Shown here piece by piece: positions 20,077 through 48,134 of a stretch of DNA of 54,639 bases. Every line of letters begins with the position of its first letter. Position 1 is the first letter of the stretch. Both the position numbers and the translations under genes were made by a program. The stretch is from positions 1 through 54,639 of IMG/VR virus record IMGVR_UViG_3300009034_000048. One strand, 5' to 3'. This DNA comes from a virus. Below the pieces are notes generated by a model. It did not search any database. It worked only from the letters and a program-made list of their open reading frames with translations, and was not told the origin of the DNA.

Positions 20077-20874
20077 ATGAAAAAGAAACTAATATTTATA
20101 TGTGGATTGTGTGTCATTGAGAACGAAGCCCAAACTTTAAAAGTTGCTAGATATTTAAAAAAGATAACTTCTAAATATCCTGAAGTAGACTTTTATTTTA
20201 AAGCCAGTTATGATAAAGCCAATCGCACTTCAATAGATTCATTTAGAGGAGTAGGATTTAGAAAAGGTAAAGAAATTTTAGGAAAAGTTAAAAATGATTT
20301 AAATATTAAAATTTTGACGGATGTCCATTCTATTCCTCAAGCTATCGCAATCAATAATAAATATAATTGGATAGATGTTCTTCAAATTCCAGCTTTCCTT
20401 TGTAGACAAACAGATTTAGTAAAAGCAATTGCAGATACAAACTCAATAGTTAATATTAAAAAAGGACAATTTATTGCACCAGAAGATGTAAAATATATAA
20501 TCGAAAAAATAGAATCAACAGGAAACAAAAATATAATGATAACAGAAAGAGGAACTTGTTTCGGATACAGAGATTTAATAGTCGATTATAGGTCTTTTAT
20601 TAAACTAAAAAAATATGGTTATCCTGTTATATTTGATGCTACCCATAGCCAACAAAAACCTTCTGCTGATAAAGGACAATCAGGAGGAACACCAGAATAT
20701 ACTCGTCAAATGATTTTGGGAGCAATTGCTACAGGAGTGGATGGCATATTTATGGAAGTTCATCCTAACCCTTCAAAAGCAAAATCAGATAGTGCTACTA
20801 GTCTATATTTAGAAGATGTAGATATTATATTGAAACAGGCGTTAGAAATAAAAAAGTTAGTTTCAAAGTATTGA
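20077..20874 (+). CDS. kdsA: 3-deoxy-D-manno-octulosonate 8-phosphate synthase
   Basis: KdsA condenses phosphoenolpyruvate with arabinose 5-phosphate to give Kdo 8-phosphate. The 265-residue protein shows FKASYDKANRTS, LTDVHS, QIPAFLCRQTDL, KKGQFIAPED, TERGTCFGY, IFDATHS, FMEVHPNP and SDSATS in the correct order. The N-terminal Cys in GLCVIE, with the His, Glu and Asp of the later motifs, fits the metal-dependent class. ATG 20077 is chosen; an upstream ATG lies in the previous gene. Promoter P2 overlaps the stop, so kdsA closes its operon. kdsB lies 20 kb downstream. Confidence 0.93.
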   Translation: MKKKLIFICGLCVIENEAQTLKVARYLKKITSKYPEVDFYFKASYDKANRTSIDSFRGVGFRKGKEILGKVKNDLNIKILTDVHSIPQAIAINNKYNWIDVLQIPAFLCRQTDLVKAIADTNSIVNIKKGQFIAPEDVKYIIEKIESTGNKNIMITERGTCFGYRDLIVDYRSFIKLKKYGYPVIFDATHSQQKPSADKGQSGGTPEYTRQMILGAIATGVDGIFMEVHPNPSKAKSDSATSLYLEDVDIILKQALEIKKLVSKY

Positions 20875-20900
20875 CAATTAAGGAGATAATATGGTATACT
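20855..20900 (+). promoter_or_regulatory. phage promoter P2 (AGTTAG-TTGACA-TATACT)
   Basis: AGTTAG at 20855-20860, TTGACA at 20871-20876 and TATACT at 20895-20900, with spacings of 10 and 18 as in P1 and P3. TATG precedes the -10. The upstream element lies inside the kdsA coding region and the -35 overlaps its stop. The leader to the next ATG is only about 12-14 bases. Confidence 0.85.
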
Positions 20901-20919
20901 TGATGAAAGGGAACTATAA

Positions 20920-21129
20920 ATGAAAAATCCTAAATTAAAGCTAAAAATCCGAAAAAATAGAACATCAGGGGTTAAAAGATTAAGAAATCTTATTAGAGAA
21001 GATGTGCATTATTGTTTGTTAGATATAGAACCTTATATAGTTAGTGATATAATGCGACGTTTGAAAAAAGAAGGTATCATCTATGTCAAGAAAAACAAGA
21101 AGAAAAATAAAAAGAAGAAAAAGAAATAA
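20920..21129 (+). CDS. basic hypothetical protein, first gene after P2
   Basis: A 69-residue, strongly basic protein ending in a Lys/Asn run. Residues ~15-55 could form a winged-helix-like unit (RLRNLIREDVHYCLLDIEP). AAGGG lies upstream. It overlaps the following gene. Confidence 0.55.
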   Translation: MKNPKLKLKIRKNRTSGVKRLRNLIREDVHYCLLDIEPYIVSDIMRRLKKEGIIYVKKNKKKNKKKKKK

Positions 21130-21307
21130 ATCTAAAAGAACTAAAAATTTCTTTTTCCGTTGGTCGGATAGACCAATTTCAAATAGATTTACAAGATTGA
21201 GCACTTGGGTTATGTTAATAGTAGAAATTGCTTTTTTGATAGTATGTGCATATTGGGCATTTATTGAAACGACAGCCAGATTATTTGGCTGGTGGGGAGG
21301 ATACTAA
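21083..21307 (+). CDS. basic N-terminus plus one transmembrane helix
   Basis: A 74-residue protein: about 25 very basic residues, a short linker and one transmembrane helix (WVMLIVEIAFLIVCAYWAF) with an aromatic Gly-rich end. It overlaps the genes on both sides; its stop overlaps the MgtC-like start. A membrane partner for the next gene is possible. Confidence 0.5.
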   Translation: MSRKTRRKIKRRKRNKSKRTKNFFFRWSDRPISNRFTRLSTWVMLIVEIAFLIVCAYWAFIETTARLFGWWGGY

Positions 21308-21768
21308 TGATAGAGTTAATGTATTTAGGAAGATTAGGATTGTCATTACTTCTGAGTGGGATAATTGGATTCGAAAGAGAAGGACAAGATAAAAATGCAG
21401 GATTAAGAACTTTAATGCTTATAAGTCTTGGTTCTACAATTTTTACTTTGCTTCCATTTCTTTTACTTCCAATTTCCAAACAAATGGGATTTACTTATGA
21501 CTTTTCAAGAATTATTGCTTATACAGTAGCAGGAGTTGGTTTTCTTGCTGGTATAGTAATAATGGGAGATAAACGAAAAGTCAAAGGAGTAACTACCTCT
21601 GCATGTATTTGGTCTACAGTAGGAATTGGAATCTTATGTGGTATAGGAGCATTTCTATTGGCAATTGTATCTGCGTTATTTATTTATGGAGTTTTGAAAT
21701 TGAAATATGTTAAAATCACGATAGAGAAAAGGAGAAAAAGATGTCGAAGAAAAAGAAAACAAAAATAG
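21307..21768 (+). CDS. MgtC/SapB-family membrane protein
   Basis: A 153-residue protein with four to five hydrophobic helices. LSGIIGFEREGQDKNAGLRTLML, an Asp/Arg-containing loop, and the later VGFLAGIVIMGD...VKGVTTSACIW are the MgtC/SapB signature. MgtC proteins modulate the F1Fo-ATPase and membrane potential and affect survival under low magnesium. The C-terminal ACT-like domain of SapB is missing; a short Lys/Arg tail remains. ATG 21307 is chosen over an earlier in-frame start in the previous gene. Confidence 0.85.
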   Translation: MIELMYLGRLGLSLLLSGIIGFEREGQDKNAGLRTLMLISLGSTIFTLLPFLLLPISKQMGFTYDFSRIIAYTVAGVGFLAGIVIMGDKRKVKGVTTSACIWSTVGIGILCGIGAFLLAIVSALFIYGVLKLKYVKITIEKRRKRCRRKRKQK

Positions 21769-21917
21769 AATTCATTCCTATAATGACACCATGCACCTAT
21801 CATCACTTAGATGAAAAAGGCAATTGTCGCAATTGTAATAATACAGGACAATACAAAGACGGTTATTACATGATTATAAACGATAAGGTGGCATTTACTG
21901 TAGATACCATAAAATAA
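21741..21917 (+). CDS. 58-aa Cys/His protein
   Basis: ATG 21741, behind AAAGGAG, to TAA 21915-21917. CTYHHLDEKGNCRNCNNTG is a compact metal-binding knuckle related to DnaJ-type zinc repeats (C-x-x-C-x-x-T-G). It overlaps the end of the MgtC-like gene. Function unknown. Confidence 0.55.
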   Translation: MSKKKKTKIEFIPIMTPCTYHHLDEKGNCRNCNNTGQYKDGYYMIINDKVAFTVDTIK

Positions 21918-21927
21918 AAAGGAAGAA

Positions 21928-22512
21928 ATGAAAATATGGTGGTTTGACGTAGAAACAACTGGATTAGACCCAAATAGAAATGATATAATTTCTTTAGCAT
22001 GTATTATTGATATTGATGGAGAAATAAAAGAAGAATTTAAACTTAATATCCAACCTTTTGATTGGAATAATATCGAATTATCTGCTTTAAAAATCAATGG
22101 TATTACTGTTGAACAATTAAAAACTTTTATGACTCCTAAAGAAGCTCATTTAAAATTAAAATCTTATTTACAGAAATATGTCGACCCTTATAATAAGAAC
22201 GATAAATTTCAACCAGGGGGATATAATAACGATTTCGATATTAAATTTATGAGCAGTTTTTTTAAAAAATGTGGAGACCAATATTTCGGTAGTTGGATAG
22301 ATTATCATCGATTCGACCCACAATCGATGTTACAATTTTTACATTTAAAAGGAGATGTAAAAATACCTAATTACAAATTAGAAACAGTTGCTAATTATTT
22401 TGGAATAAAAATAAAGGCTCATGATGCAATGAGTGATATTAAAACTACAAGAGAAATTGTGTATAAACTTTTACCAAAAATAACATACCAAGAAAGAAGA
22501 GAAAATGTATAA
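21928..22512 (+). CDS. DnaQ-like 3'-5' exonuclease
   Basis: A 194-residue DEDDh exonuclease: FDVETTG at the N-terminus (Asp/Glu), a middle Asp in NNDFDIKF and HDAMSDIKTT near residue 170 giving the His and last Asp. It would serve as proofreader or single-strand nuclease. AAGGAAG lies upstream. It overlaps the PrimPol gene by eight bases, so it belongs to the replication operon. Confidence 0.85.
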   Translation: MKIWWFDVETTGLDPNRNDIISLACIIDIDGEIKEEFKLNIQPFDWNNIELSALKINGITVEQLKTFMTPKEAHLKLKSYLQKYVDPYNKNDKFQPGGYNNDFDIKFMSSFFKKCGDQYFGSWIDYHRFDPQSMLQFLHLKGDVKIPNYKLETVANYFGIKIKAHDAMSDIKTTREIVYKLLPKITYQERRENV

Positions 22513-22954
22513 AGAAATAATTAACACTCACTTACTTCAATATTTAAAATTAAAAAAGATACCTTATAAAAAAGCTGGTAAAATTGTAATGGTAAAATGT
22601 CCTTTTTGTCATCAAGACAAAACAGTGTCACAGCTAATTCCAAATACTCATATTGTAAATTGTTACCTTTGCAAGAAGCATTATACTATTATAGATTATG
22701 CCAAAAAAATGGAAAAAAATTTTCCAGAAAAAGAAGAAGAACAATATCACTTTCTTAAAGAACTTTTGAAAGTAAAAGTAATGACAAAAACAGATGAAAC
22801 AAATATAGAAAAAGTTTTAGATTTTTATGTTAAAAATGGATTCGATTTAGTCCCAATAGCTAATAATCAAAAAGTTCCTATCGAAAAAGATTGGACAAAT
22901 AAAACTCATAAACAAAAAAACGAATGGCAAAAAACGAATGGCAAAATTGGATAG
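22505..22954 (+). pseudogene. N-terminal part of split PrimPol-helicase (zinc finger and start of PrimPol)
   Basis: 149 residues before a premature stop. A CHC2-type zinc finger, CPFC...CYLC (~38-58), precedes the start of a bifunctional primase/polymerase domain: FYVKNGFDLVPIANNQKVP (~108-126). The reading frame ends after a 14-base duplication at 22915-22942. The rest of the PrimPol domain continues in the -1 frame at 22924. Removing one repeat copy restores one frame (…KNEWQNWIANG…). A -1 slip on A-AAA-AAC at 22915-22921 would also join the frames. Confidence 0.8.
22915..22942 (+). repeat. 14-base tandem duplication causing frameshift
   Basis: AAAAAACGAATGGC is present twice in tandem (22915-22928 and 22929-22942). 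Fourteen is not a multiple of three, so the extra copy shifts the frame. The first copy starts within the heptamer A-AAA-AAC, which is in register for a -1 ribosomal slip. Confidence 0.85.
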
Positions 22955-24411
22955 CGAATGGATTAAATATAGGAATAAAAACAGGAATTAAAAGTAATGT
23001 AACTATTATTGATATAGACCAGAAACCTATTCCTGAAGAAATAAAAAAATTGATGGGAAATACTTTAATACAAGAATCTACTAATGGTTTTCATCTTTTT
23101 TATAAATACGATAAAGAGTTCCCAAAAACTAGAATTGATTCTCTCAAAATCGATATAGAAAATGATGGCGGTCAAGTTGTAATATATCCTTCTAAAATTA
23201 AAGAAGTTGAAAGAAAAATCCAAATACATCCGATTATAAAAATATCTAAAGAATTGAAAGAATTTTTACTCTCTAAAACAACAATTCCAAGAAAAACTCA
23301 TAGCGAAGAATTGAGAGAAGCGATTAAAACGGAAGATTTTAAAATAGACCCTACAAAATTTGCTTTAAAAAATAATCAATTAGAAGGAAGTTGTAATACC
23401 GAATTTATAAAATTGGGAGGAATTCTAAGAAAACAATTGACCACAAATCAAACAGGCTATGTGTTAAATATTTTAAATAAACATATGTTAGAAAATCCTA
23501 TGCAACAAAGAGCTATAAATGCTATGATTAGAGAATTAGATAAATACAATATATTTGATGAAAAAGAATTGGCTCATAAAGTATTAGAATATTTAAAAGA
23601 TGTCGAAGAGGCGAGTCGAAATGAAATTGCTATGACAATCGTAGGCACTAATAGGGGAGAAGATAAAAAAAGAGTAGATAAAGCATTAAAATATTTAGTT
23701 AAAGAAGAATACATAGTTAAAAGAGGAACTCGTTATGCAATTATGCAAAAAGCGAATTGGTCTGAAGATTTAATAGAACAAAGTAAACCTATTAATTTTA
23801 CAATGTCTTATTTTTCTGATATAGCTAATTTTAATTGGGGAGACCTTTTATTGATAGGGTCTAAAAATAAACGTGGCAAAACTCATATCAGTATGAATAT
23901 CGTAAAACACTTAGTGGAACAAGGAATAAAACCTTATTATATATCATTAGAAACAGGGTCTCGTTTTAAAAAGATAGCATTACAATTAGGATTAAAAGAA
24001 GGAGATTTTTATCATGATTTTCAAATAGACCCTACGAAAATAGAACTTCCTAAAAATGCAGTAACTATTATTGACTGGCTTTTGATTGTAGATAAAAGCA
24101 AAACAGACTTAGTATTTAGACATTTAGTTGAACAATTGTATAAGACCAATGGAATCATAATTTGTTTCCAACAATTAAAACAAGATAACGGTTGGTTTGC
24201 TCCTAATATGGCTATGCAGTTTCCAGCCCTTTCTGCAAGATATATTTATGATTCCGATGACGTTGGAGAATTTGGAAAATTTGATATAGATGTTATAAGA
24301 GACCCTAAATTGAAAGTTAAACATTACGAAATTCCTTGTCGTTATGATTGGGAAGCAAAAACTTTAACAAAAATTACTGAAAATGAATTACCTGAAGAGG
24401 AAAATAAATGA
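22924..24411 (+). CDS. C-terminal part of PrimPol-helicase
   Basis: 495 residues. The start continues the PrimPol domain (GLNIGIKTG, VTIIDID, QESTNGFHLFYKY and a GGQVVIYPS motif with metal/nucleotide residues). After a helical and winged-helix-like linker (~160-280) comes a RecA/DnaB-like ATPase: P-loop GSKNKRGKTH, Walker B TIIDWL and a Gln-switch FQQLKQ. ATG 22924 exists, but independent translation would lose the zinc finger and the first PrimPol strands. The whole is a primase-helicase for replication start and unwinding. Confidence 0.85.
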   Translation: MAKNEWQNWIANGLNIGIKTGIKSNVTIIDIDQKPIPEEIKKLMGNTLIQESTNGFHLFYKYDKEFPKTRIDSLKIDIENDGGQVVIYPSKIKEVERKIQIHPIIKISKELKEFLLSKTTIPRKTHSEELREAIKTEDFKIDPTKFALKNNQLEGSCNTEFIKLGGILRKQLTTNQTGYVLNILNKHMLENPMQQRAINAMIRELDKYNIFDEKELAHKVLEYLKDVEEASRNEIAMTIVGTNRGEDKKRVDKALKYLVKEEYIVKRGTRYAIMQKANWSEDLIEQSKPINFTMSYFSDIANFNWGDLLLIGSKNKRGKTHISMNIVKHLVEQGIKPYYISLETGSRFKKIALQLGLKEGDFYHDFQIDPTKIELPKNAVTIIDWLLIVDKSKTDLVFRHLVEQLYKTNGIIICFQQLKQDNGWFAPNMAMQFPALSARYIYDSDDVGEFGKFDIDVIRDPKLKVKHYEIPCRYDWEAKTLTKITENELPEEENK

Positions 24412-24518
24412 ATCAAATAAAATCTGATTTGAAATTTGTTGGATGGTGTATTATTATTTCTTTGTTTCTTTCTTCATTAGTTTTTCTTACAGTATTAGTA
24501 ACATTTGGAATGTTATAA
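24408..24518 (+). CDS. 36-aa single-helix membrane peptide
   Basis: ATG 24408 overlaps the helicase stop (ATGA) behind GAGGAAA. 36 residues with one hydrophobic helix (IIISLFLSSLVFLTVLVTF). A real micro-membrane protein is likely; role unknown. Confidence 0.5.
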   Translation: MNQIKSDLKFVGWCIIISLFLSSLVFLTVLVTFGML

Positions 24519-24530
24519 AAGAGAAAAATA

Positions 24531-24713
24531 ATGTGGAGTAAAAAAACTTATTGTAAAGTTCATGATACTTTCATGGCAGGGGAAGACGATATGTGTCCGA
24601 AAAGAAAAAATGTGTGTGTATATTGTTGTTTAAAATGCTACAATGGTAAATGTGAATTTGAAGGAAATAAAAATTCTATAGAATTTACAATAAATTGTGA
24701 AAAAGTAAAATGA
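24531..24713 (+). CDS. 60-aa Cys-rich protein
   Basis: Nine Cys in 60 residues, including C-V-Y-C-C and C-Y-N-G-K-C, fitting one or two zinc sites. It overlaps the RuvC-like start by four bases. Function unknown. Confidence 0.55.
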   Translation: MWSKKTYCKVHDTFMAGEDDMCPKRKNVCVYCCLKCYNGKCEFEGNKNSIEFTINCEKVK

Positions 24714-25279
24714 AATATCTCAAGAAAATTAGGATAGATAGAGTAGAAGCTTTTTTAGGAATAAAATTGAAACCCAATATTATTTCTATAGGTTGGGATG
24801 TCAGTGTTAGAAGCACAGGAATAGCAGTTATTAGAACTACCGATACTTATCTTATTGTGGATAAAACTCATAAAATAACTATTCCTAAAAATGTGGCTCA
24901 AATAGATGCTCTCGATTTATTCATTAATCAGCTTAATGAATTTGCTAGGGAAATTAGTAAGACATATAAAATTGATATTAATATTATTGAAGATTGTTAT
25001 TTTGGGACTAATGTGAATACTTTAAAAGCATTGGCTAGACATAGTGTTTTGGTTTATGATAAATTTAAAGGATTGACTCGTAAGCAATTATTTTTATTAC
25101 CGACTTCAGCAAGGAACAAAGTCAACTTTAAAAAATCATCTAAGAAAATAAAAGGACATGCACTTAAAAAAGAGATAGTAGAATATATTAATAACGCACT
25201 AGATTTAAAATTAAAAATGAAAGACCAAGATATTAGTGATGCTTGTGTTTTGGTTTTAGCAGGGTTAAGAGAGGAATAA
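24710..25279 (+). CDS. RuvC-like Holliday-junction resolvase
   Basis: A 189-residue RNase H-fold nuclease. Acidic residues at the RuvC positions: D30 in SIGWDVSVRSTGIAV, E94 in NIIEDCYFG, and D174 and D177 in KDQDISDACVL. RuvC-type enzymes cut four-way junctions formed in replication and recombination. It lies between the helicase and RecA genes. Phage versions can also debranch DNA before packaging. Confidence 0.85.
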   Translation: MKYLKKIRIDRVEAFLGIKLKPNIISIGWDVSVRSTGIAVIRTTDTYLIVDKTHKITIPKNVAQIDALDLFINQLNEFAREISKTYKIDINIIEDCYFGTNVNTLKALARHSVLVYDKFKGLTRKQLFLLPTSARNKVNFKKSSKKIKGHALKKEIVEYINNALDLKLKMKDQDISDACVLVLAGLREE

Positions 25280-25489
25280 ATGAAAAATCTAATAAAATAT
25301 ACTATAGGATTACCAATATTAATAGTGATGACTATTGCATTTATTTTAAGTGCAATTATAATGGCAATTTTTGAATTATGGGCAGGGATAATGGGTAACA
25401 TATTATTTGGAGATAGATTTTATAGTTGTGATATTGGTTTAGACATATTAAAAGAAATAATAAGAATTTGGCAACCTATAGGATATTAA
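25280..25489 (+). CDS. small membrane protein, 69 aa
   Basis: Starts at the base after the RuvC-like stop. One long or two short hydrophobic helices within residues 8-45 (LPILIVMTIAFILSAIIM). Function unknown. Confidence 0.55.
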   Translation: MKNLIKYTIGLPILIVMTIAFILSAIIMAIFELWAGIMGNILFGDRFYSCDIGLDILKEIIRIWQPIGY

Positions 25490-25496
25490 AAAATAA

Positions 25497-25664: not shown

Positions 25665-25839
25665 AGTAAAATATACCTTAGATTTAAAAGATAAACAAGA
25701 TTTAGAAAGAATTAAAAAATTGTTTGATAATTATTTTGGAATATTGAAAATCATGACAGAAGATAGTAAAAATGCTTTAGATGGCGGAGGTATGCCTAAT
25801 TACATAGTTAATATTGAAATTAAAGAGGATTGGGTATGA
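25651..25839 (+). CDS. hypothetical protein, 62 aa
   Basis: A 62-residue protein with AAAGGAGAG upstream and four-base overlap with the next gene. Mixed alpha/beta, no recognised motif. Confidence 0.5.
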   Translation: MKINKVKYTLDLKDKQDLERIKKLFDNYFGILKIMTEDSKNALDGGGMPNYIVNIEIKEDWV

Positions 25840-27625: not shown

Positions 27626-28280
27626 AGATAAAAAAATAATATTAAAAGTTCTCGTCGGAAGTAGGGCTCATGGTCTTGCAAATAAAGATTCTGATTATGA
27701 CTATCGAGCTGTGTATGTGCTTCCTACTTCTAAAATCCTTTCTTTAGGATATAAGTATAAAGGAAATGATTAGATAGAAGGCAAAGAAGATAATACTTCT
27801 TACGAAATAGGACATTTTTTAAAATTAGCTATGCAATGTAATCCGACAATATTGGAAGTCTTCAAAGCTCCAATTGTCGAAGCAACTGAAGAAGGTAAAA
27901 AATTAAGAGAGTTATTTCAATATGTCTGGACTGCAAAAAAAGCCTATGACGCTTTTGTCGGATATGGATTAAACCAAAGGAAGAAATTTTTGGATAAGAA
28001 AGATAATCGTCAAAATAAATTTGCAATAGCATATATTAGAACTCTTTGGAATTTAATTGAACTATTAAAACTTGAAAATTTTTACGTTAAAATTGAAGAA
28101 GGTAATTTTAAAGAAAGACTAAAAAAATACAAACAAGGAAATTACACTATAGGAGACATAATTAATTATGCAGAATCATTAACTAATTTTGCTAAAGGAG
28201 TTTTAAAATATTGTAAACACGAAGCGAATATAGAAAAAATAAATGAATTTTTAATTGACATACGAAAGAGGTATTGGTAA
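27618..28280 (+). pseudogene. RlaP-like nucleotidyltransferase with in-frame TAG
   Basis: Residues from ATG 27618 include LVGSRAHGLANKDSDYDYR, the pol-beta nucleotidyltransferase signature (GS, DxD) of RlaP-type proteins (RNA-repair-pathway pol-beta family, PF10127). At 27771-27773 the frame hits TAG, then stays open in the same frame through IGHFLKLAMQCNPTILEVF, the typical next block, to 28280. The TAG replaces what reads like a Trp (TGG) position (GND-x-IEG). It is either a nonsense mutation, a readthrough site or an error; TAG serves as a normal stop elsewhere in the window. Confidence 0.8.
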
Positions 28281-28714
28281 TGGTCATAATATTTGATTTA
28301 GACGGAACTTTAGCGGATATAGAACATAGAAGACATCTTGTAACTGATGGAAATGTTGATTGGGATAACTTTTATAAATTATGTATAGATGATTCGCCTA
28401 ATATGCCAATTGTGGAATTATATAAAACTCTTCAAAAATCAGGTAAATATACAATGACAATATTTTCTGGACGAGGAGAAATTGCTAAAAAAGAAACAAA
28501 AAAATGGCTGAAAGATAATTTTATTAAATATGATATATTAAAAATGAGACCAAAAGGAGATTATACTCCTGATGAAATATTAAAATTAGGATGGCTAAAA
28601 GAATTACAACAAAAAGAAATGATAATGTGTGTTTTTGATGATAGAAAAAAAGTCGTAGATATGTGGAGAAAACAGGGACTTATTTGTTGTCAAGTAGCAA
28701 AAGGAGATTTTTGA
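28280..28714 (+). CDS. HAD-family 3'-phosphatase (PNKP/T4 Pnkp type)
   Basis: A 144-residue HAD phosphatase. Motif I is FDLDGTLA, motif II is FSGRGE and the C-terminal FDDRKKVVDMWRKQG...VAKGDF closely follows the phosphatase domain of T4 polynucleotide kinase. It would remove 3'-phosphates or 2',3'-cyclic phosphates from broken RNA. No kinase domain is attached. It starts at the last base of the RlaP-like gene (TAATG), so the two form one module. Confidence 0.85.
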   Translation: MVIIFDLDGTLADIEHRRHLVTDGNVDWDNFYKLCIDDSPNMPIVELYKTLQKSGKYTMTIFSGRGEIAKKETKKWLKDNFIKYDILKMRPKGDYTPDEILKLGWLKELQQKEMIMCVFDDRKKVVDMWRKQGLICCQVAKGDF

Positions 28715-30340: not shown

Positions 30341-30742
30341 ATGAGTAATGGAAGCATATTCAAAATCTGGGGTGAACGTCGTCGGATTCTTTTAACCGAC
30401 CAAACAGAAATAGACCTTCTTTATCTTAAAAAAGACTCATTCTGTTCTACTCACTCACATGTTACCAAAATTAATAAGTTTGTAGTTATCGAAGGCAAAG
30501 TTAGAATTGAAACTGAATTTGGTAAAAAAACATTAATTAAAAATCAAAGTTTCGAGGTAATCCCTCCTTTAGTCCATAGATTCTTTGCTTTAGAAGATAG
30601 CGTAATGATTGAGTTAGCATATGTAACAGAAAATTATATCCAACCAAAAGATATTAAAAGATTATCACAAGGTGGTCGGGTAATTAATGGCAAAGAATAT
30701 ACTAAAAAACAACTAAGAGCAAAAGGATTATTAGATTTATGA
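30341..30742 (+). CDS. cupin-domain protein
   Basis: A 133-residue single-domain cupin. THSHVTKINKFVVIEGKVRIET gives the first cupin motif with metal His (HSH) and Glu/Lys, and VIPPLVHRFFALED the second with its His. These domains resemble the C-terminal part of mannose-6-phosphate isomerase and dTDP-sugar epimerases. With the Kdo genes, a sugar role is attractive but unproven. Confidence 0.75.
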   Translation: MSNGSIFKIWGERRRILLTDQTEIDLLYLKKDSFCSTHSHVTKINKFVVIEGKVRIETEFGKKTLIKNQSFEVIPPLVHRFFALEDSVMIELAYVTENYIQPKDIKRLSQGGRVINGKEYTKKQLRAKGLLDL

Positions 30743-30906: not shown

Positions 30907-31001
30907 AAAATAAAAAAAGAAATTTACGATTAAGAAAAAGAAGACGTAGACGAAAACATAGAAAATTGGCTTATAAAGGAAATGGGAGATATAAAAAATG
31001 A
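30903..31001 (+). CDS. 32-aa Arg/Lys-rich micropeptide
   Basis: ATG 30903 to TGA 30999-31001; 32 residues with about 18 Arg/Lys, in an ATGA chain with both neighbours. Composition like a protamine or short RNA-binding peptide, and similar in kind to the 34-residue peptide at 1862. The conserved operon packing supports reality. Confidence 0.5.
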   Translation: MKNKKRNLRLRKRRRRRKHRKLAYKGNGRYKK

Positions 31002-31612
31002 ATCACAATATAAGATTTAATAAATGGGCTCGTAGATATGATAGGTCTATATTGCAATTATTAGTTTTTAATCAAGCACATATTATGCTATTAAAACAGA
31101 TAAGACTTAAATATTTTCATGCTAAACAACCTGTTAGAATTTTAGATGTGGCTTGTGGAACAGGTCGATTTATAGCATGTCTACGAAAATTGATGCCTGA
31201 TTCAGTAGAATTATATGGAATTGATTATTCCGAAAAAATGATAGAAAAAGCGAAAACAAAAGCTGGTTATGTCAGTTGGAATGTAGCAAATATTAATGAA
31301 TTACCATATAAAGAAAATACTTTTGATATAATAACTTGTAGCCATGCTTTTCATCATTTTCCTTCTCAAACAAAAGCTTTAGCAGAAATATATAGAGTTT
31401 TAAAACCAGGTGGAATTTTAATGATAGTAGATGGTTATCGAGATAATTTATTAGGACAAATTATATATGGAATTGTAACATTTATCGAAAAAAATGTTTA
31501 TCATGTTCCACAAAAAGAAATGAAAGAAATGTTTTTAAAAGTAGGATTTAAAAATACCAAACAAATTAGATTTCATTATATACCTTTGCTTTTTACTTCA
31601 GGAGAGAAATAA
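30998..31612 (+). CDS. SAM-dependent methyltransferase (class I, UbiE-like)
   Basis: A 204-residue Rossmann methyltransferase: motif I LDVACGTGRF (~47-56), motif II GIDYSEKM, HAFHHFPS and LKPGGILMIVDGY. Substrate unknown; lipid, quinone or glycan methylation are family options. GGGAGA lies upstream and it overlaps the next gene by one base. Confidence 0.8.
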   Translation: MNHNIRFNKWARRYDRSILQLLVFNQAHIMLLKQIRLKYFHAKQPVRILDVACGTGRFIACLRKLMPDSVELYGIDYSEKMIEKAKTKAGYVSWNVANINELPYKENTFDIITCSHAFHHFPSQTKALAEIYRVLKPGGILMIVDGYRDNLLGQIIYGIVTFIEKNVYHVPQKEMKEMFLKVGFKNTKQIRFHYIPLLFTSGEK

Positions 31613-32202
31613 TGTCTAATATATATCCATATGAAAAATTAAGTTGGTTAATGAAAGGCAAAAGACGATATATCCTTAGAATGGATGGAGATGAAGCCAA
31701 ATATTTATATGATTTGGTAGCTTCTCTTGATAATCCTTATTGTGTAGAAATTGGCAGAATGGAAGGAGGTTCGGTATTGTTGATAACTTATGCAGGAGGA
31801 AGAGTATTTTCTTTGGATTTACATATTTCGAAAACAGTTGCACAAGGAAGAGGAGCTCATTTTGACGCATATCTAAAAGAAGTATTGAATTTAGTAGGCT
31901 TAAAAGATAGAGCACAAATTATAGTAGCAAATAGTCAAAAATATGATACCTCTGAATTTTCTAATAAAGTGGATATATTATTTATAGATGGAGACCATAG
32001 TTACGAAGGAGTGAAAAAAGATTATGAAAATTGGGTAGATACTGTAAAACCAAGCGGACATATTCTTTTCCACGATGCTTGTAGAACTAGAGGGGGAGCA
32101 ACTTTAGTGCCTGGTGTTAAAAAGTTTGTAGATACTGTTCCTTTAAAAAGAATAAATGAAATAGGGTCTATAGTTCATTTTGTAAAAACAAAAGAGGATT
32201 AA
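31612..32202 (+). CDS. SAM-dependent methyltransferase (Methyltransf_24-like)
   Basis: A 196-residue methyltransferase of the TylF/cephalosporin-hydroxylase-like type: VEIGRMEGGS (SAM loop), VFSLDLHIS, DILFIDGDHSYEGVKKDYENW and ILFHDAC. Members often modify sugars or capsular glycans. It sits beside another methyltransferase and the cupin, a possible small-molecule or glycan cassette. Confidence 0.8.
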   Translation: MSNIYPYEKLSWLMKGKRRYILRMDGDEAKYLYDLVASLDNPYCVEIGRMEGGSVLLITYAGGRVFSLDLHISKTVAQGRGAHFDAYLKEVLNLVGLKDRAQIIVANSQKYDTSEFSNKVDILFIDGDHSYEGVKKDYENWVDTVKPSGHILFHDACRTRGGATLVPGVKKFVDTVPLKRINEIGSIVHFVKTKED

Positions 32203-41061: not shown

Positions 41062-41760
41062 ATGAAGGCAGTTGGAATTATCCCTGCACGCTATAATTCT
41101 ACAAGATTCCCAGGAAAATTGCTTGTAAAAGTTAAAGGGAAATCTATTCTTCAACATGTTTATGACCGAGCCAAACAAGCCAAAAGTTTGGATTCTATTA
41201 TTATAGCAACGGGGGATATGAAGATATTTAGAGATATTATGGAATTTACTGATAATATTTATCTTAATTTATCGAAACATGACTCAGGCACAAGTAGAGT
41301 AGCTGAAGTAGCCAAAACTTTAAAAGATGTAAATATTATTGTAAATATTCAAGGAGATGAACCATTAATTCATCCAACTATGATAGATGCTTTAGTAGAA
41401 ACAATGAAAAAAAATGAGCAACTTCAAGTAGCTACTATAGTTAAAAAGATAACAAATCCCGAAGATTTGCATTATGCAAATATAGTTAAAGTTGCAGTAG
41501 AGAAAGGATATGCTACTTGGTTTGGAAGACATCATCTAGCTTCTTACAAACATATAGGAATATATGCTTATAGAAAAGACTTTTTATTGAAGTTAATCAA
41601 TTTGCCAAAATCTAAAAAAGAAGAGCAAGAATCTTTAGAACAATATAGAATCTTAGATAATAATTATAAAATTAAAGCTATTGAGACTAGTTATGATACT
41701 GTTGCTATCGATAGACCTGATGACTTAAAGAAATTTAAACGTATATTATTAAGGAAATAA
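41062..41760 (+). CDS. kdsB: CMP-Kdo synthetase
   Basis: KdsB activates Kdo with CTP to CMP-Kdo. The 232 residues show IIPARYNSTRFPGKLL (nucleotide loop), HDSGTSRVAEV, NIQGDEPLI (metal Asp), HIGIYAYRKDFL, ESLEQYRIL and the VAIDRPDDL end. It is shorter than bacterial enzymes (~245-255). The usual SRSPIP segment before HIGIYAYR is replaced by FGRHHLASYK, a possible specificity change. A related CMP-sugar synthetase is the main alternative. GGGAAGG lies upstream. Confidence 0.9.
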   Translation: MKAVGIIPARYNSTRFPGKLLVKVKGKSILQHVYDRAKQAKSLDSIIIATGDMKIFRDIMEFTDNIYLNLSKHDSGTSRVAEVAKTLKDVNIIVNIQGDEPLIHPTMIDALVETMKKNEQLQVATIVKKITNPEDLHYANIVKVAVEKGYATWFGRHHLASYKHIGIYAYRKDFLLKLINLPKSKKEEQESLEQYRILDNNYKIKAIETSYDTVAIDRPDDLKKFKRILLRK

Positions 41761-41761: not shown

Positions 41762-42202
41762 ATGAAAGTAATTAAAGGAAATATTTGGGATTATTGGCAA
41801 AAAGGATATGTTATTGTGATTCCGACAAATAGAACTATCAAAAAAGATGGGTCGTTAGTAATGGGGAAAGGTTTAGCTTATCAATGTAAAAATAAATTTG
41901 AAAATATAGAATATCAATGGGGAGCACAAATAACACAAAGTTGCGAAATTATTCCTCAAATATTTTACGATGCAAGAAGATTAATATATTTTCCTGTTAA
42001 ATATAATTGGTGGGAAAAAGCTGATTTGGATTTAATAAGACATTCCATTATAGAATTAAAATCTTTGTTGATAGAAGGAATAGTAGAAAAAATTGCTATC
42101 CCTAAAGTTGGATGCGGAAATGGACAATTAAATTGGAAAGAAGTAGAGCCAATTTTGGATAAGTATTTGAATGATAGATTTATAGTGGTGGACTTAAAAT
42201 GA
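41762..42202 (+). CDS. macro-domain ADP-ribose-binding protein
   Basis: A 146-residue macro domain: VIKGNIWDY at the start, VIPTNR, GSLVMGKGLAYQCK (adenine/phosphate loop) and IAIPKVGCGNGQLNW (second phosphate loop). Closest in style to ADP-ribose-1''-phosphatase-type phage macro proteins. It could reverse ADP-ribosylation used by host defences or act in RNA repair. Overlaps the SbcC-like gene by four bases. Confidence 0.85.
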   Translation: MKVIKGNIWDYWQKGYVIVIPTNRTIKKDGSLVMGKGLAYQCKNKFENIEYQWGAQITQSCEIIPQIFYDARRLIYFPVKYNWWEKADLDLIRHSIIELKSLLIEGIVEKIAIPKVGCGNGQLNWKEVEPILDKYLNDRFIVVDLK

Positions 42203-43629
42203 TAATAAAAAGCGTAAAATTAACTAATTTTAAGTGTTTTAAGGGGGCTAAATTCCTATTTGACCCTATGACCCTTCTAAAGGGCAGGAATGGCTCTGGG
42301 AAGACTACAGTGGCTCTGGAGGCACTATTGTTCGCCTTATATGGCTACACTTCGCTAGAATTACTCTCAGATTTACCCACAAAGGGCGTATCCAAGAGTT
42401 GTTCCGTAGAAGTAGAGCTTAAAAAGGACGAAAATACCTATGTTATAAAGAGGTCTTATCCTACTAAGTTATCTATTAGAAAAAATGATAAAAACATGAT
42501 TTTTAGCACTAGTGTAGAAGGCAATAAATATATTTATGATTTATTAGGGTCTAGGGAATATTTTCAGAAGTTTAGAGTAATAGATACTGCTAAAGAAAGC
42601 AATTTATTAGAACAGGGTAATATCGTTTTGAAAAGGGTAATATTTGCAGAATCAGACGCAATTTTTAATACCATTAGAAAAAGATTGTTTGAAATTAAGA
42701 ATGAAAGAGAACGTTTTAATAAAGACCAAGCAGTGGTGCATACACACTATCCTTCTGAAAAAAGATTACAACTTATAAGTAGTAAAATCCAAGAGTTAGA
42801 AGAACAGGATAGAGATTTATACAAAACTGTTATAGAGTTTGAAAAAGACTATCGCAAAGTAGAAAGAGAAATTGGACATTTAGAACAAAGGAAAAAAACT
42901 GTAAAAAATAATCAAGATAAAGTTCGCAAGGAAAATATTTGTTTTACTTGTAAACAAAAGATTCCTAATCCAACTCAAAAAGAATTGGTTAATGAGATAA
43001 ATAAAGAAATTAAAGAAATAAATAGTTCTCTTTCCATTCAAAACTCAGAAGTAAAAGACTTAAAAGATTTGGTAGAATCTCATCGCAAAATTCAAGAAAC
43101 TGTTTCTACCAAATTGCAAAAATTATCTCATTTAAAGATTAAATTAGAAGGAAGATTACATCAAAAGGATTTTATTTATACCAATAAAGATGTTGAAATA
43201 GTAAAAAGAACTATTAAAGAATTAGATAATCTTTCTACTTATTATTTGACAGAAACTACTAAAGTTTTAGAACCCATAATTAATTCCATTTTAGAAAATA
43301 TACATTTTTACGTAAAATTTGAAATAGATAATAAAGGCAAATTTGTTATTCGTTTACAGAATAATAATATAATTTACAAATATAAAGACTTATCTACTGG
43401 ACAAAAATTATTACTTCAGATAGCATTTAAACTAGCTCTATTATTACAAAATAATGATACAGGAATTGTAATAGCAGATGAAGGAATGTCTAGTTTAGAT
43501 TCAGAAAATTTGCAACATATTTTGCAGATTTTTGAAGGATTACCTTTTCAATTATTTTTGGTATTACATAGATTCGAAGATATTCCAGAAAATATCAAAA
43601 CAATAAATTTGGACGAATATAATGACTAA
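42199..43629 (+). CDS. SbcC/Rad50-like ATPase (T4 gp46 type)
   Basis: A 476-residue SMC-family protein. N-terminal FKCFKGAKF and GRNGSGKTT (Walker A) and C-terminal LSTGQKLLLQIA (signature) and VIADEGMSSLD (Walker B) flank a ~200-residue coiled coil with a zinc hook CFTCKQKIP (~250). With SbcD it would process DNA ends. The first ~80 codons are much richer in G+C (about 45-50% against roughly 28-30%) and use different codons from the rest, suggesting a patch of other origin. Confidence 0.9.
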   Translation: MIIKSVKLTNFKCFKGAKFLFDPMTLLKGRNGSGKTTVALEALLFALYGYTSLELLSDLPTKGVSKSCSVEVELKKDENTYVIKRSYPTKLSIRKNDKNMIFSTSVEGNKYIYDLLGSREYFQKFRVIDTAKESNLLEQGNIVLKRVIFAESDAIFNTIRKRLFEIKNERERFNKDQAVVHTHYPSEKRLQLISSKIQELEEQDRDLYKTVIEFEKDYRKVEREIGHLEQRKKTVKNNQDKVRKENICFTCKQKIPNPTQKELVNEINKEIKEINSSLSIQNSEVKDLKDLVESHRKIQETVSTKLQKLSHLKIKLEGRLHQKDFIYTNKDVEIVKRTIKELDNLSTYYLTETTKVLEPIINSILENIHFYVKFEIDNKGKFVIRLQNNNIIYKYKDLSTGQKLLLQIAFKLALLLQNNDTGIVIADEGMSSLDSENLQHILQIFEGLPFQLFLVLHRFEDIPENIKTINLDEYND

Positions 43630-43798
43630 TTCTTATTATAGTCAAACAGTTCGATGTGAATACTGTGGACACACTTGGATAATAATTTCTGACAAAAAAA
43701 TAACTCCAATTCAAATGGTAAATTGGGTCAAAATTTTTATAGTAGAACATTTACAAGTAGAATTCGACCAACTTAGAAAAAAATATGAAGAAGAATAG
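43622..43798 (+). CDS. 58-aa zinc-knuckle protein
   Basis: ATG 43622 overlaps the SbcC-like stop; TAG at 43796-43798. One CEYCGHTW knuckle and a helical tail. TAG is used as an ordinary stop. Function unknown. Confidence 0.5.
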   Translation: MTNSYYSQTVRCEYCGHTWIIISDKKITPIQMVNWVKIFIVEHLQVEFDQLRKKYEEE

Positions 43799-43803
43799 GA
43801 GAA

Positions 43804-44340
43804 ATGGAAATGGATTTTAAAGAAATATTAAAAAAGATTGTTGGAGGATTTTTCGGTGGACTTTTAGGAGCTTGGGGCGGAGCTAAAGGCACGAATAAAC
43901 TTTGGAGAAGATTAGGACTTCCAATTTTAATTACTACTATTGTTTTATTAGTTTTAAAATCTTGGTTAGTTTTATCTATATTTAGTTTAATGATTGTTCT
44001 TTCTTTAGGATATGGAATTCCTGACAACTTTCCTGGAGGAGATAAAGGAAGTCCATTAGGAAGAATTTATTACTTCCTTTTTGGACGGAATTATTTTCTG
44101 GCAGATATATTTACAAGAGGCACAATAGGGCTTTTATCATGTTTGACTTTTTTAAGTATTCCTTTATTAAAGTCAAATTGGATTATGTATATTGTAGGAG
44201 CTCTTATTACGATAGTAATTTATGCTACTTTTAGTTGGAGAACTTTAGGAAGTGTTGTTATATTTGGTAAAAATTTAATATGGAGTGAAATTTTAACATA
44301 CTTCGCCTTGACAACTTTTGCCATGTTCTTAATATTTTAA
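43804..44340 (+). CDS. multi-pass membrane protein, 178 aa
   Basis: A 178-residue protein with about four to five transmembrane segments and a Gly-rich start (FFGGLLGAWGGAKG). ATG 43810 is an alternative start. No known transporter motif. A short gap follows before the glycan cluster. Confidence 0.6.
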   Translation: MEMDFKEILKKIVGGFFGGLLGAWGGAKGTNKLWRRLGLPILITTIVLLVLKSWLVLSIFSLMIVLSLGYGIPDNFPGGDKGSPLGRIYYFLFGRNYFLADIFTRGTIGLLSCLTFLSIPLLKSNWIMYIVGALITIVIYATFSWRTLGSVVIFGKNLIWSEILTYFALTTFAMFLIF

Positions 44341-44380
44341 TATGTAAAGTAACTAATAAATAACTAAACAAAAATACATT

Positions 44381-44995
44381 ATGGAAATATTAGTAGTTTT
44401 AGTAGGAAATAGTCCCAAAAAATTAAAAAGACTTCAAAAGCTTTATGCTAATAATATACCCAAAGAAAAACATCGCACTATAGTAGTATATAATGGGTCA
44501 AAAAATTATAATAAAATAAATTTATATGTTCCTAATAATATACGAAGTAAAGATATAGGAATGTATTATGAAGCTGTCAAAAATTACAAAGCCGATTTTT
44601 ATTTTTTTCTTAATGACGATATAATATACATTAAAGATAATAATTGGTTATATACAGCTCTTAAATTGCAAAGAAATGCAGAAGTAATAGGAGTGCAAAC
44701 CAATCTTTCGTCTATTATTTCGATGAATACGATAAAAAAAATTGCGACCTATGTGCCAGCTAAATGGTCAGGTTGGGGAATCAATCCTAAATTTATACGA
44801 ACTTCTGCTTTTGGATGCACTAGAGAATATTTTTTGCGTGTTTGGAAAGCTTCTGATGGAAATGGGCAGAAATTTGAAAAAAATACTTTGAAATTAGCAA
44901 ATAGTTTTGGATTGTTTAATGACCCTTTTTATATTTTTGACGAAAACCTAAAACCTTACTTTAAATATTTGCAGGGAAATAATGAAAAATATTGA
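44381..44995 (+). CDS. GT-A-fold glycosyltransferase
   Basis: A 204-residue protein with a GT2-like start (EILVVLVGNSPKKLKRLQ), a helix rich in charge and FFLNDDIIY, where Asp-Asp sits at the DxD-like metal site. It has no membrane anchor. It opens a cluster of glycan genes after kdsB and overlaps the GT29-like gene by 14 bases. Sugar donor unknown. Confidence 0.7.
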   Translation: MEILVVLVGNSPKKLKRLQKLYANNIPKEKHRTIVVYNGSKNYNKINLYVPNNIRSKDIGMYYEAVKNYKADFYFFLNDDIIYIKDNNWLYTALKLQRNAEVIGVQTNLSSIISMNTIKKIATYVPAKWSGWGINPKFIRTSAFGCTREYFLRVWKASDGNGQKFEKNTLKLANSFGLFNDPFYIFDENLKPYFKYLQGNNEKY

Positions 44996-45521
44996 TAATT
45001 TTTTAGCAGGGAAAAAGATTGCACTTATCGGAAATGCAAAAAGCGTATTTAATAAAGAGAAATTTATAGACAATAAGTATGATATTGTTTGTCGTATAAA
45101 CGCTGGCTTTCCACAAGGGAAAGAAAAATATATAGGAAGTAGAACAGATATTTTATTTTTATCATCAGCTCTATCCGAAGGTGCTATAAAAAGATTTGGA
45201 ACAAAATATACTGTATGGTGCACTCCAAAAGTTCAATATATGACCAATTGGATAAGAAAAAATGCTTTACGTTATCCTATTGAAAATTGGAATGTGCTAT
45301 ATGCTGATTTGAGCCATCGACCTTCTACTGGAATAATGGCATTTGATTATCTTTTGTGTTTTGGTTTCAAAAGTTTAACATTGATTGGATTTGATTTTTG
45401 GAAAACTTCTACTTGGTATACTAATAATATACATTTGGCAAAACACAGTCCGAAAGATGAAGAAAGATATATTAAAGCCAAAATCAAAGAATATAAAGGC
45501 AAAATAATTTTGGAGGAATAA
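44982..45521 (+). CDS. GT29-like (sialyl/Kdo-transferase-type) glycosyltransferase
   Basis: A 179-residue protein resembling bacterial GT29: KIALIGNAKSVF, then DIVCRINAGFPQG and a GSRTD segment (like sialyl motif L), and PSTGIMAFDYLLCFGFKSLTLIGFDFW with a later His/Glu (like motif S). GT29 enzymes take CMP-linked acidic sugars. A plant member transfers Kdo. With kdsA and kdsB nearby, CMP-Kdo is the likely donor. The specificity is inference. Confidence 0.75.
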   Translation: MKNIDNFLAGKKIALIGNAKSVFNKEKFIDNKYDIVCRINAGFPQGKEKYIGSRTDILFLSSALSEGAIKRFGTKYTVWCTPKVQYMTNWIRKNALRYPIENWNVLYADLSHRPSTGIMAFDYLLCFGFKSLTLIGFDFWKTSTWYTNNIHLAKHSPKDEERYIKAKIKEYKGKIILEE

Positions 45522-45522
45522 A

Positions 45523-45927
45523 ATGAAAAAATTACTTTGGTCTTATTCTAAACAATTTAAAAAAAAGATAGAAAGAATGTTTAATAAGCAGAAAGAAATA
45601 TACGATTTAAAAACTTCTTTAGAACTTACGAATTATATACAAGATACTTTCTATGATACAGATAAAGATAAAATAAGGTCATTCATTCCACTTAAATATC
45701 AACAATTAAAGGATATGGCTATTTTTGGATTATTTCATGAATTAAAACATGCAATAGATTATAAATCTAATCCTAAAAAATTTGCGATTGAAATAGGAAA
45801 AGCAGGGAATCAAGGAGCTTTTGGGCTATATAAAAATCATAGTAATTTGCCTTTTGAGAAAAGAGCAAATAAATTCGCTGAACTTAAATCTGGTTTAAAA
45901 ACAGACAATGTTAATTCAATATTATAA
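45523..45927 (+). CDS. HExxH metalloprotease-like protein
   Basis: A 134-residue zincin-like protein: GLFHELKHAIDYK supplies the HExxH site, and FEKRANKFAELK may give the third acidic ligand. It lies inside the glycan cluster. It is the fourth HExxH protein of the window and differs in sequence from the 5421/18023 pair. Target unknown. Confidence 0.6.
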   Translation: MKKLLWSYSKQFKKKIERMFNKQKEIYDLKTSLELTNYIQDTFYDTDKDKIRSFIPLKYQQLKDMAIFGLFHELKHAIDYKSNPKKFAIEIGKAGNQGAFGLYKNHSNLPFEKRANKFAELKSGLKTDNVNSIL

Positions 45928-45935
45928 ATTAAATT

Positions 45936-46823
45936 ATGAAGTATAAAAAAGCTATATTAATAAACGACACGTCCAATGAAAGCCATCTTGGTTGCGATAG
46001 CGTTATTAGAAATATCAAACTTCTATGCAAAAAAAATGACATGGAAGTTATTAGGACATTTACACGCCAAGATATTAATAATCGTCGTAATCTTGAACAT
46101 ATTAAAGATGGTGACATTATAATTGTAAATGGAGAAGGAACTCTTCATGATGGATGGGGAAAACAATGGCTTACTAAATTTCTTAAACTCATACCTAAAG
46201 GAACAAAAGCAGTGTTGATTAATAGTGTATGGCATAATATGGGGAAGATTGAGAGAATGGCGAAATTCTCTTTAATTTCTGTAAGAGAGTTGAATTCTTT
46301 TGAGTCTATAGTAAAAGATTATCCATATCCAGAAAAAATATGGGTAGTGCCTGATGTTATTTTTTATACTGAACTCCCGAAAGAATTAAATATAGGATAT
46401 GGAGATAGTAATAATGGTTCGATTACAGCCATATTGAATAAAAATGGAAATTATTTTCCATTGCATTATAAACGTCCAGGAACGTATCAACACCCTGCCG
46501 AATTAAAATCTCAAAATTTAAAGTCTTATCGTAAGTGGTTAAAATCATTGGACTTATATATTACAGGTAGGTTTCATGGAGTTTGTTTATCTGCTATGAC
46601 AGCTACTCCTTTTTTAGCTTTTGCTTCTAATGCAACAAAAATCGAAGGTATTTTAAGAGATATGAATTGTTCTGATTTATTAATTAAAAATTTAGATGAA
46701 GTCGAAAAGAAGAAAGAATTGGCTATTGAATTGATTCCAAGAGCTTATTTATATGCTACACAAGCGAAAGAAGCGATTGAGAGTTTGTTTAAAAAGATAA
46801 GAAGGATAGCTTATGAAGAATAA
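45936..46823 (+). CDS. polysaccharide pyruvyltransferase-family protein
   Basis: A 295-residue CsaB/WcaK-type enzyme that adds pyruvate ketals to sugars from phosphoenolpyruvate. SHLGCDSVIRNIKLL at the N-terminus, VNGEGTLHDGWG, and TGRFHGVCLSAMTATPFLAFASNATKIEG in the second half are family hallmarks. Pyruvylation creates acidic surface glycans. Fits the cluster with GT29-like and Kdo genes. Some members act as glycosyltransferases instead. Confidence 0.88.
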   Translation: MKYKKAILINDTSNESHLGCDSVIRNIKLLCKKNDMEVIRTFTRQDINNRRNLEHIKDGDIIIVNGEGTLHDGWGKQWLTKFLKLIPKGTKAVLINSVWHNMGKIERMAKFSLISVRELNSFESIVKDYPYPEKIWVVPDVIFYTELPKELNIGYGDSNNGSITAILNKNGNYFPLHYKRPGTYQHPAELKSQNLKSYRKWLKSLDLYITGRFHGVCLSAMTATPFLAFASNATKIEGILRDMNCSDLLIKNLDEVEKKKELAIELIPRAYLYATQAKEAIESLFKKIRRIAYEE

Positions 46824-47454
46824 ACAATTAATTATAATCGGCGGTGGAGCAAGTATAAAAGAAGGTATAAAAAAAGACCTTTGGAAAAGGTTAAAGAATA
46901 AATTCGTTTGTGGGATAAATTATTCCTATCGTTATTTTGACTCCACATATTTATGTTGTATGAATTATACTGATTTCTATGATACAAATAGAAAAGAACT
47001 TAAACAATTACCTTTGGTTTTAATACCTTCAAGACCCCATCCAAGTATTTATGAAGCAAATACATTGGCTATATATAGCACTAGTGATTATCGTTTGTCT
47101 GGGATTTTTGCTTTAGATGTAGGATTACATTTATTAGATGAAGGGGAGGTTTTTTTACTTGGTTATGACTATGGAACAATAAATAATAAGACCCATTTCT
47201 ATCAAGGTCAAATAGAACATAGAGGTATAGGGAAATCCCAATATTATAATCGTCCTGGTCATGCTGAAAGAGATTTTGAAATATTTAAGCAGGGGAAGAA
47301 AGTTCGTATTTATAATGTATCTTTAGATAGCAAGATAACTACTTTCCCTAAAATAAGTTATGAGGAATTTTTTAAGAAATTAAATGACAAATCTTACGAC
47401 CAAAAAAAATTAGTAAAAAGTATAAGACAGAAACTGGACAAAGTATCATGTTAA
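46813..47454 (+). CDS. DUF115/MptE-like sugar-transferase-type protein
   Basis: A 213-residue Rossmann-like protein: IIIGGGASIKEGI near the start, GINYSYRY, FLLGYDYG and an HRGIGKSQYY segment. The fold recalls DUF115/GT42-type proteins that bind nucleotide-linked acids. Overlaps the pyruvyltransferase by eleven bases. A clear tandem paralogue follows. Confidence 0.65.
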   Translation: MKNKQLIIIGGGASIKEGIKKDLWKRLKNKFVCGINYSYRYFDSTYLCCMNYTDFYDTNRKELKQLPLVLIPSRPHPSIYEANTLAIYSTSDYRLSGIFALDVGLHLLDEGEVFLLGYDYGTINNKTHFYQGQIEHRGIGKSQYYNRPGHAERDFEIFKQGKKVRIYNVSLDSKITTFPKISYEEFFKKLNDKSYDQKKLVKSIRQKLDKVSC

Positions 47455-48134
47455 AAAAACCATTGCAATTGGTGATAATAGGTGGGGGAAGTAGTATCCA
47501 AGAAGGTGTCTCTAAAGATTTATGGAATAAATTGAAAGATAAGTTTGTGATAGGGATTAATTATTCATATAATTATTTTAAAGACCCTACTATTTTATGT
47601 TATTGTGATAAGAAATTTTATAACGATGAAAGAAAAAAAATAAAGAATCTTCCTTTAGTAATAGGAAAAGAACACGGTCAATTACACCCTGAACCAAATA
47701 CTATAATGCTTAAAACTATAGCTTCTAAATATTCTAGAGATTTGAAAAATGGAGTTTGGAAATCCAGTTTAACAGGTATTTTTGCCTTAACTTTAGCAAT
47801 ACATTTGTTAGATGAAGGCGAGATATTTTTATTAGGATATGATTATTCTGCAATAGGTAAAAGCAAAAGAAGCGAATCTCTTACTCATTTTTATCAAGAA
47901 GAGATTCAACACAGAGGGACAGGACGAACAAATTATTATGATTCAAGTGGGCGAGCTGATAAAGATTTTTTACCTTATAAAAACGAGAAAAAAATAAAAA
48001 TTTATAACGTCAGTATGAATAGTCGTATAAATACTTTTAAAAAAATTTCTTATGACCAATTCTTCAAAATGCTAGATAAGAAAACTTATAATCAAGAAGA
48101 GTTACGGAAGTTTATTAAGGAGAAATTAAAATGA
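47448..48134 (+). CDS. DUF115/MptE-like paralogue
   Basis: A 228-residue paralogue of the previous gene: VIIGGGSSIQEGV, GINYSYNYF, FLLGYDYSA, HFYQEEIQHRGTGRTNYY. The two copies diverged in the middle, which may change the acceptor. Both could transfer CMP-activated sugars, as GT42 enzymes do; family placement is by eye. Confidence 0.65.
   Translation: MLKKPLQLVIIGGGSSIQEGVSKDLWNKLKDKFVIGINYSYNYFKDPTILCYCDKKFYNDERKKIKNLPLVIGKEHGQLHPEPNTIMLKTIASKYSRDLKNGVWKSSLTGIFALTLAIHLLDEGEIFLLGYDYSAIGKSKRSESLTHFYQEEIQHRGTGRTNYYDSSGRADKDFLPYKNEKKIKIYNVSMNSRINTFKKISYDQFFKMLDKKTYNQEELRKFIKEKLK

Follow-up and report, generated by a model that had tools for sequence, protein, structure and literature searches.

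Kdo-related genes on a virus record

We analysed the linear IMG/VR virus record IMGVR_UViG_3300009034_000048 in its whole length of 54,640 bases (hereafter the window), which is possibly incomplete and has a G+C content of 28.1%. It encodes a family B DNA polymerase (PolB), a RuvB/clamp-loader-like ATPase and a tyrosine integrase, with tail-like proteins near the right end, and carries genes for making and probably activating the acidic sugar 3-deoxy-D-manno-octulosonic acid (Kdo), together with a set of predicted transferases. All of these genes lie on the plus strand: kdsA, for a Kdo-8-phosphate synthase predicted to be metal-dependent (class II), at 20077–20874; a cupin gene of the phosphomannose isomerase (PMI) C-terminal type, a tentative candidate isomerase, at 30341–30742; and kdsB, for a cytidine monophosphate (CMP)-Kdo synthetase, at 41062–41760. 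The transferase cluster at 44–48 kb begins with an open reading frame (ORF) of 44381–44995, followed by a GT29 glycosyltransferase, the proposed Kdo transferase (44982–45521), a polysaccharide pyruvyltransferase (45936–46823) and two putative transferases of the MptE/DUF115 superfamily, copies a (46813–47454) and b (47448–48134). With kdsA at approx. 20 kb, the cupin at 30 kb and kdsB at 41 kb, the genes are spread over 28 kb; the base composition of kdsA and kdsB is the same as that of the remaining genome.

KdsA and KdsB

The window KdsA scores 337.1 bits against TIGR01362, exceeding the equivalog cut-off of 314, and its closest PDB structure is the Aquifex aeolicus KDO8PS (1fwn, E 8.3e-75). 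The substrate- and metal-site motifs KANRxS, RQTDL, KKGQ and ERGxxFGY are present, and residues K42, K47, N49, R50, R110, K128, K129 and R158 are invariant in the phage set. As none of the phage KdsA proteins compared has lost the metal-site residues C12, H190, E227 and D238, the enzyme is expected to be metal-dependent. Judged by its sequence, it is a true Kdo-pathway enzyme with predicted activity on arabinose-5-phosphate (A5P) and phosphoenolpyruvate (PEP). In the kdsA tree the phage genes have a minimum of two separate origins, and four in its best version; phages have therefore acquired this gene repeatedly. In the T4-like contig L067, the phage KdsA (366–1736) has a C-terminal extension of approx. 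190 residues.

The KdsB protein likewise exceeds its equivalog cut-off (163.0 against 155.2 bits, TIGR00466) and matches the KpsU structure 1gq9 with E 7.7e-40. Residues R10, S13, R15, K19, R79, Q97, D99, E193 and D221 are invariant, and among them R10, R15, K19, D99 and D221 are the retained residues of the nucleotide and metal sites. These features identify the predicted protein as a true enzyme of the Kdo pathway; a search of PHROGs returned nothing matching it. A preliminary description of this DNA had named both genes, and had staked its proposal on intact KdsA and KdsB active sites and on transferases of suitable families: the key active-site residues are kept in both enzymes, and the GT29 placement described below is firm.

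A viral GT29 protein

On its own, the 44982–45521 protein matches PF00777 with 19.2 bits (E 8.6e-4), under the cut-off of 23 bits. We therefore rely on a family profile (A3) built from 22 phage relatives, all of which match PF00777 at E ≤ 0.01 (best 1.6e-26). Over positions 11–186 this profile matches porcine ST3Gal-I (2wml) with E 4.6e-18; ST8SiaIII (E 6.6e-11) and ST6Gal-I (approx. 1e-10) are matched as well. The sialylmotifs L, S and VS are conserved in the family (G17 N18, G52, S115–G117, D138 F139, H155 and E160), and by these signatures the protein is a genuine GT29, which firms up what had been described as 'GT29-like'. Similar in motifs to the mammalian sialyltransferases ST3Gal-I and ST8SiaIII, it differs from these larger enzymes of the secretory pathway, whose donor is CMP-Neu5Ac.

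The earlier suggestion that CMP-Kdo could serve as the GT29 donor has a eukaryotic precedent in Arabidopsis RCKT1, a GT29 genetically supported as a CMP-Kdo transferase of pectin (PMC11288761). The phage protein shares the GT29 fold and motifs with the plant enzyme (RCKT1/MGP2, acting on rhamnogalacturonan II), and Kdo transfer by the phage protein is our proposal; the plant enzyme is a eukaryotic Golgi protein with a pectin acceptor, whereas the phage protein is small and soluble, with a predicted donor and acceptor. GT29 proteins have also been reported in bacteria (PMC5811610). A further relative, annotated as hypothetical, is encoded by the cultured Stenotrophomonas phage vB_SmaS-DLP_6 (L134, 6001–6792), where it adjoins a nucleotide-diphospho-sugar transferase.

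Pyruvyltransferase and the MptE/DUF115 pair

The pyruvyltransferase is recognised by PF04230 with 47.5 bits (cut-off 25.3, E 3e-12), in agreement with its first naming, and a homologue adjoins GT29 in phage contig L050.

Copies a and b, sharing 54% identity, are paralogues, and both match phrog_4603 ('alpha-2,3-sialyltransferase'; E 1.2e-9 and 2e-11, respectively). The structure model of copy b (predicted local distance difference test, pLDDT, 91.8) gave Foldseek matches to MptE/HPPK (prob 1.00) and ST8SiaIII (prob 0.97), with a loose likeness (TM approx. 0.4). PF01973 was matched by four of 19 family members (best 1.1e-5), the window copy alone giving no match. The pair belongs to the MptE/DUF115 superfamily, which also contains WaaZ, the Kdo III transferase of the Escherichia coli lipopolysaccharide (LPS) core. 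In hhalign comparisons the pair family aligned with a set of WaaZ and WaaZ-like proteins, to which Rhizobium proteins had been added, at 93.5% (E 2.3e-7), against 0.1% for KdsB as the negative control. Membership in WaaZ/GT73 itself was rejected, as the NCBIfam WaaZ model matches none of the 19 members and the likeness is at the level of the superfamily. Of the earlier label 'DUF115/GT42-like', the first half stands and GT42 is not supported: no PDB match was obtained by profile, and the top 50 Foldseek matches comprise GT29 and MptE, with no GT42/CstII. The name 'GT-A transferase' given to the leading ORF of the cluster (44381–44995, containing FLNDD) had to be dropped, since no convincing match was found in Pfam, PHROGs, NCBIfam, PDB or phages.

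Co-occurrence in phages and bacteria

The combination of kds genes with GT29 recurs outside the window. The jumbo phage LR756500 encodes GT29, the pyruvyltransferase, KdsA, KdsB and a KdsD of the SIS type in one run of approx. 10 kb, and the same five enzymes are combined in G036. The T4-like contigs L067, L068 and L070 share the order kdsA-cupin-GT29; GT29, KdsA, KdsB and SIS occur together in G029, and GT29, KdsB and KdsD in G030. Across 50,697 phage records, GT29 was detected in three and KdsA with an identity of 39% or more in four, with LR756500 in both sets against a chance expectation of approx. 2.4e-4 records. Two of the four KdsA records, both named 'Acinetobacter phage MD-2021a', may be bacterial contigs and were otherwise given no weight. 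Single-protein scans of IMG/VR for KdsB, GT29 and the pyruvyltransferase found none.

In bacteria, nine of 14 GT29 loci have a homologue of the window pyruvyltransferase no farther than approx. 1 kb from GT29, and two of these nine clusters include a gene of the KdsB family. These loci (PMC5811610; L102–L104, L107, L110, L111) resemble the window in that GT29 adjoins the homologous pyruvyltransferase, in some cases together with a gene of the KdsB family or one for an MptE/WaaZ-like protein; they differ in belonging to cellular genomes, and a complete KdsA-KdsB-GT29 set was not found in any one of them. Overall, the genomic context supports a functional linkage between kds genes and GT29.

The kds genes also occur on phages in a different setting, which brings in the view that they are ordinary auxiliary genes, sustaining LPS synthesis once host transcription stops, and that the transferases serve a separate purpose. 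Pairs of kdsA and kdsB without a detected GT29 are found in many marine phage contigs, and both have been counted among the auxiliary genes of marine viruses (PMC10653327). Phage S-SCSM2R, like LR756500 and the marine viromes, has the same two enzymes as the window; it carries them among host-like metabolic genes and differs in that GT29 was not found, in a PF00777 search whose controls were also silent, while LR756500 differs by its additional SIS-type KdsD. Such a metabolic role leaves unexplained the repeated association of kds genes with GT29 and pyruvyltransferase across unrelated phages, and we consider it distinctly unlikely as an account of the window.

The position of the cluster raises another alternative, namely that the same enzymes modify a tail or capsid protein with Kdo, pyruvylated or not, thereby changing adsorption or shielding the particle. 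Both in the window and in its relatives, the transferase cluster adjoins tail genes, and in the relatives the MptE-like gene directly precedes them with or without kds genes; the kdsA-cupin-GT29-GT cassette of L067 stops one ORF short of the tail sheath gene, and all products of the cluster look soluble. However, genes of many functions adjoin tail genes in phages, the bacterial relatives of GT29 and the pyruvyltransferase are found in cellular genomes, some amid genes of sugar biosynthesis and not beside virion genes, and the literature searched yielded no case of a phage protein carrying Kdo. Virion decoration thus seems unlikely to us, while being the main rival to the host envelope, which we favour as the acceptor.

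Missing steps and the cupin

Two steps of the canonical route were not seen in the preliminary description, and the searches confirmed this for the record. KdsC (TIGR01670) was not found in 18 phage records including the window, apart from a chance-level match in LR756500, and the host must therefore supply this enzyme; the small HAD protein at 28274–28714, considered as a candidate, is a PNKP-type phosphatase instead. KdsD of the SIS type was not found in the window record. Elsewhere, in L003 (16731–17957), a phage KdsD has an N-terminal extension of approx. 200 residues.

The cupin named in the preliminary description passes the PF01050 cut-off (25.4 against 23.6 bits). Its invariant residues comprise the CSxHxH motif, K43, H79, E91 and R107, the metal ligands H38, H40 and H79 being invariant, and its Foldseek matches include the phosphomannose isomerases 7zvm and 7zvy among many other cupins. 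The cupin adjoins kdsA in L004 and in the L067 group. Among kdsA-bearing phage records, cupin (the window, L004, the L067 group and S-SCSM2R) and SIS-type KdsD (G002, G003, G029, G036 and LR756500) are mutually exclusive in a small, non-independent sample, and five shorter kdsA-bearing fragments carry neither. A5P, mannose-6-phosphate and heptose phosphate have the same configuration at C2. Cyanophage cupins, moreover, are part of heptose clusters in which the supposed phosphoheptose isomerase gene encodes a small HAD protein, and this, with the shared C2 configuration, makes a cupin in the role of KdsD attractive. The fixed place of the cupin near PolB in relatives without kdsA weakens such a reading. 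We therefore regard the PMI-type cupin as a tentative candidate for an A5P isomerase.

A more ambitious scheme would make the phage almost self-sufficient for CMP-Kdo: the cupin would replace KdsD upstream of KdsA and KdsB, the GT29 would be the first Kdo transferase of this family from a virus, and the pyruvyltransferase would pyruvylate the Kdo to form a cap, either on the host surface or on the virion; this scheme we deem improbable.

In the cyanophages Sf-FS3 and S-SSM7 (L090, L091), the genes annotated as 'phosphoheptose isomerase' correspond to small HAD-like proteins, and the cupin next to them, which in S-SSM7 is annotated as 'cysteine dioxygenase', falls into the window's cupin family.

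Proposed pathway

From the enzyme families, the conserved residues and the recurrent co-occurrence, which are plain in the sequences, we infer the donor, the acceptor, the site of pyruvylation and the benefit to the phage as follows. Phage KdsA would condense A5P and PEP to Kdo-8-phosphate, host KdsC would take off the phosphate, and phage KdsB would convert Kdo to CMP-Kdo. The phage GT29, an inverting and soluble enzyme with the sialyltransferase fold, would then act on the cytoplasmic side and attach Kdo to a glycan, most likely a precursor of the host envelope (LPS core or capsule). The pyruvyltransferase may cap either the transferred sugar or the acceptor; the two proteins of the MptE/WaaZ superfamily may add more CMP-activated sugars. 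An altered surface of the infected cell could make the adsorption of later phages poorer. Synthesis of CMP-Kdo by the phage with the help of the host is likely, judging from the two enzymes, and Kdo transfer by the predicted GT29 is plausible. The interpretation as a whole, in which the phage makes CMP-Kdo with host KdsC and its GT29 transfers Kdo to a glycan of the host envelope, possibly with pyruvylation, is held tentatively, at a little short of an even chance.

Several observations weigh against it. The Kdo and transferase genes of the window do not form one operon, so that of the pathway for Kdo synthesis and transfer first described for this phage, the enzyme families and the kds-GT29 linkage recurring in phages and bacteria stand, and a single contiguous pathway does not. 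The donor specificity of GT29 is not readable from its sequence, and with E. coli WaaZ alone the MptE-like pair aligned at 38.7%, a likeness at the superfamily level, the NCBIfam WaaZ model missing the phage proteins. The loop of KdsB after the S/G-R motif (around residue 157) is approx. 10 residues shorter than in KpsU; it is also short in phages L092 and L095 and, holding no catalytic residue, was not taken as a defining feature, but the shortening may affect the enzyme. L004 has kdsA and no kdsB, and G002 and G003 have kdsA and KdsD, again without kdsB. The KdsA tree gave no host assignment: the KdsA proteins of the window and L004 group, with weak support, with those of Elusimicrobiota, the genomes sampled most.

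Finally, most phages with relatives of the window transferases (GT29, MptE-like) lack kdsA and kdsB; their transferases therefore need no phage-made CMP-Kdo and may use other CMP-sugars of the host. Extended to the window, this would mean that its transferases use a different host CMP-sugar, such as a nonulosonic acid, and that the kds genes are there by coincidence. GT29 and MptE/DUF115 relatives are indeed common in phages without kds genes, and the bacterial L103 cluster also holds a gene for a PseF-like cytidylyltransferase. Against this stand the recurrence of the kds linkage in several lineages and the result that no enzymes of other CMP-sugar pathways were matched among the window proteins scanned; we rate coincidence as highly doubtful, the least probable of the explanations considered.

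Other genes of the window and its relatives

Near the cupin are genes for a class I S-adenosylmethionine (SAM) methyltransferase (30998–31612, plus strand; PF08241, E 4.9e-28) and a methyltransferase of the Methyltransf_24 type (31612–32202, plus strand; PF13578, E 2.4e-17). Two genes upstream of kdsA, at 19235–19492, a small PQ-loop/SemiSWEET-like membrane protein, possibly a sugar transporter, is encoded; an MgtC-family protein is encoded at 21292–21768, and a macro-domain protein (41762–42202) immediately follows kdsB. A ClpP-type protease, two trypsin-like proteases and a peptide deformylase lie in series at 14871–17848, and L004 also has trypsin-like relatives. Small ORFs at 18023–18445 and 45523–45927, the latter without a Pfam match, contain an HExxH motif and are possibly metalloprotease-like, and a candidate C92 papain-like amidase (48131–48616) is kept beside tail genes across the window's lineage. 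In L004, dense methyltransferase, GT-like and sulfotransferase-like genes (118–7967), one protein being a confirmed sulfotransferase, lie upstream of cupin-kdsA.

Significance

Both kdsA and kdsB have been recorded from phages before (S-SCSM2R; PMC10653327), and the new part is their link with a viral GT29 and a pyruvyltransferase; in the literature searched, mostly outside subscription journals, we found no description of a viral GT29 linked to CMP-Kdo. If the proposed pathway is correct, phages hold, besides genes for Kdo synthesis, a transferase dedicated to Kdo, from a family whose best-known members are the sialyltransferases of animals, and this would explain the repeated acquisition of kdsA by phages. 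A small, soluble GT29 would become available for studying Kdo transfer outside plants, and so would a mechanism of surface change or of virion glycosylation that can be put to the test. The phage may thus use Kdo, an acidic sugar of the bacterial outer membrane, to give its host cell, or its own particles, a new coat.

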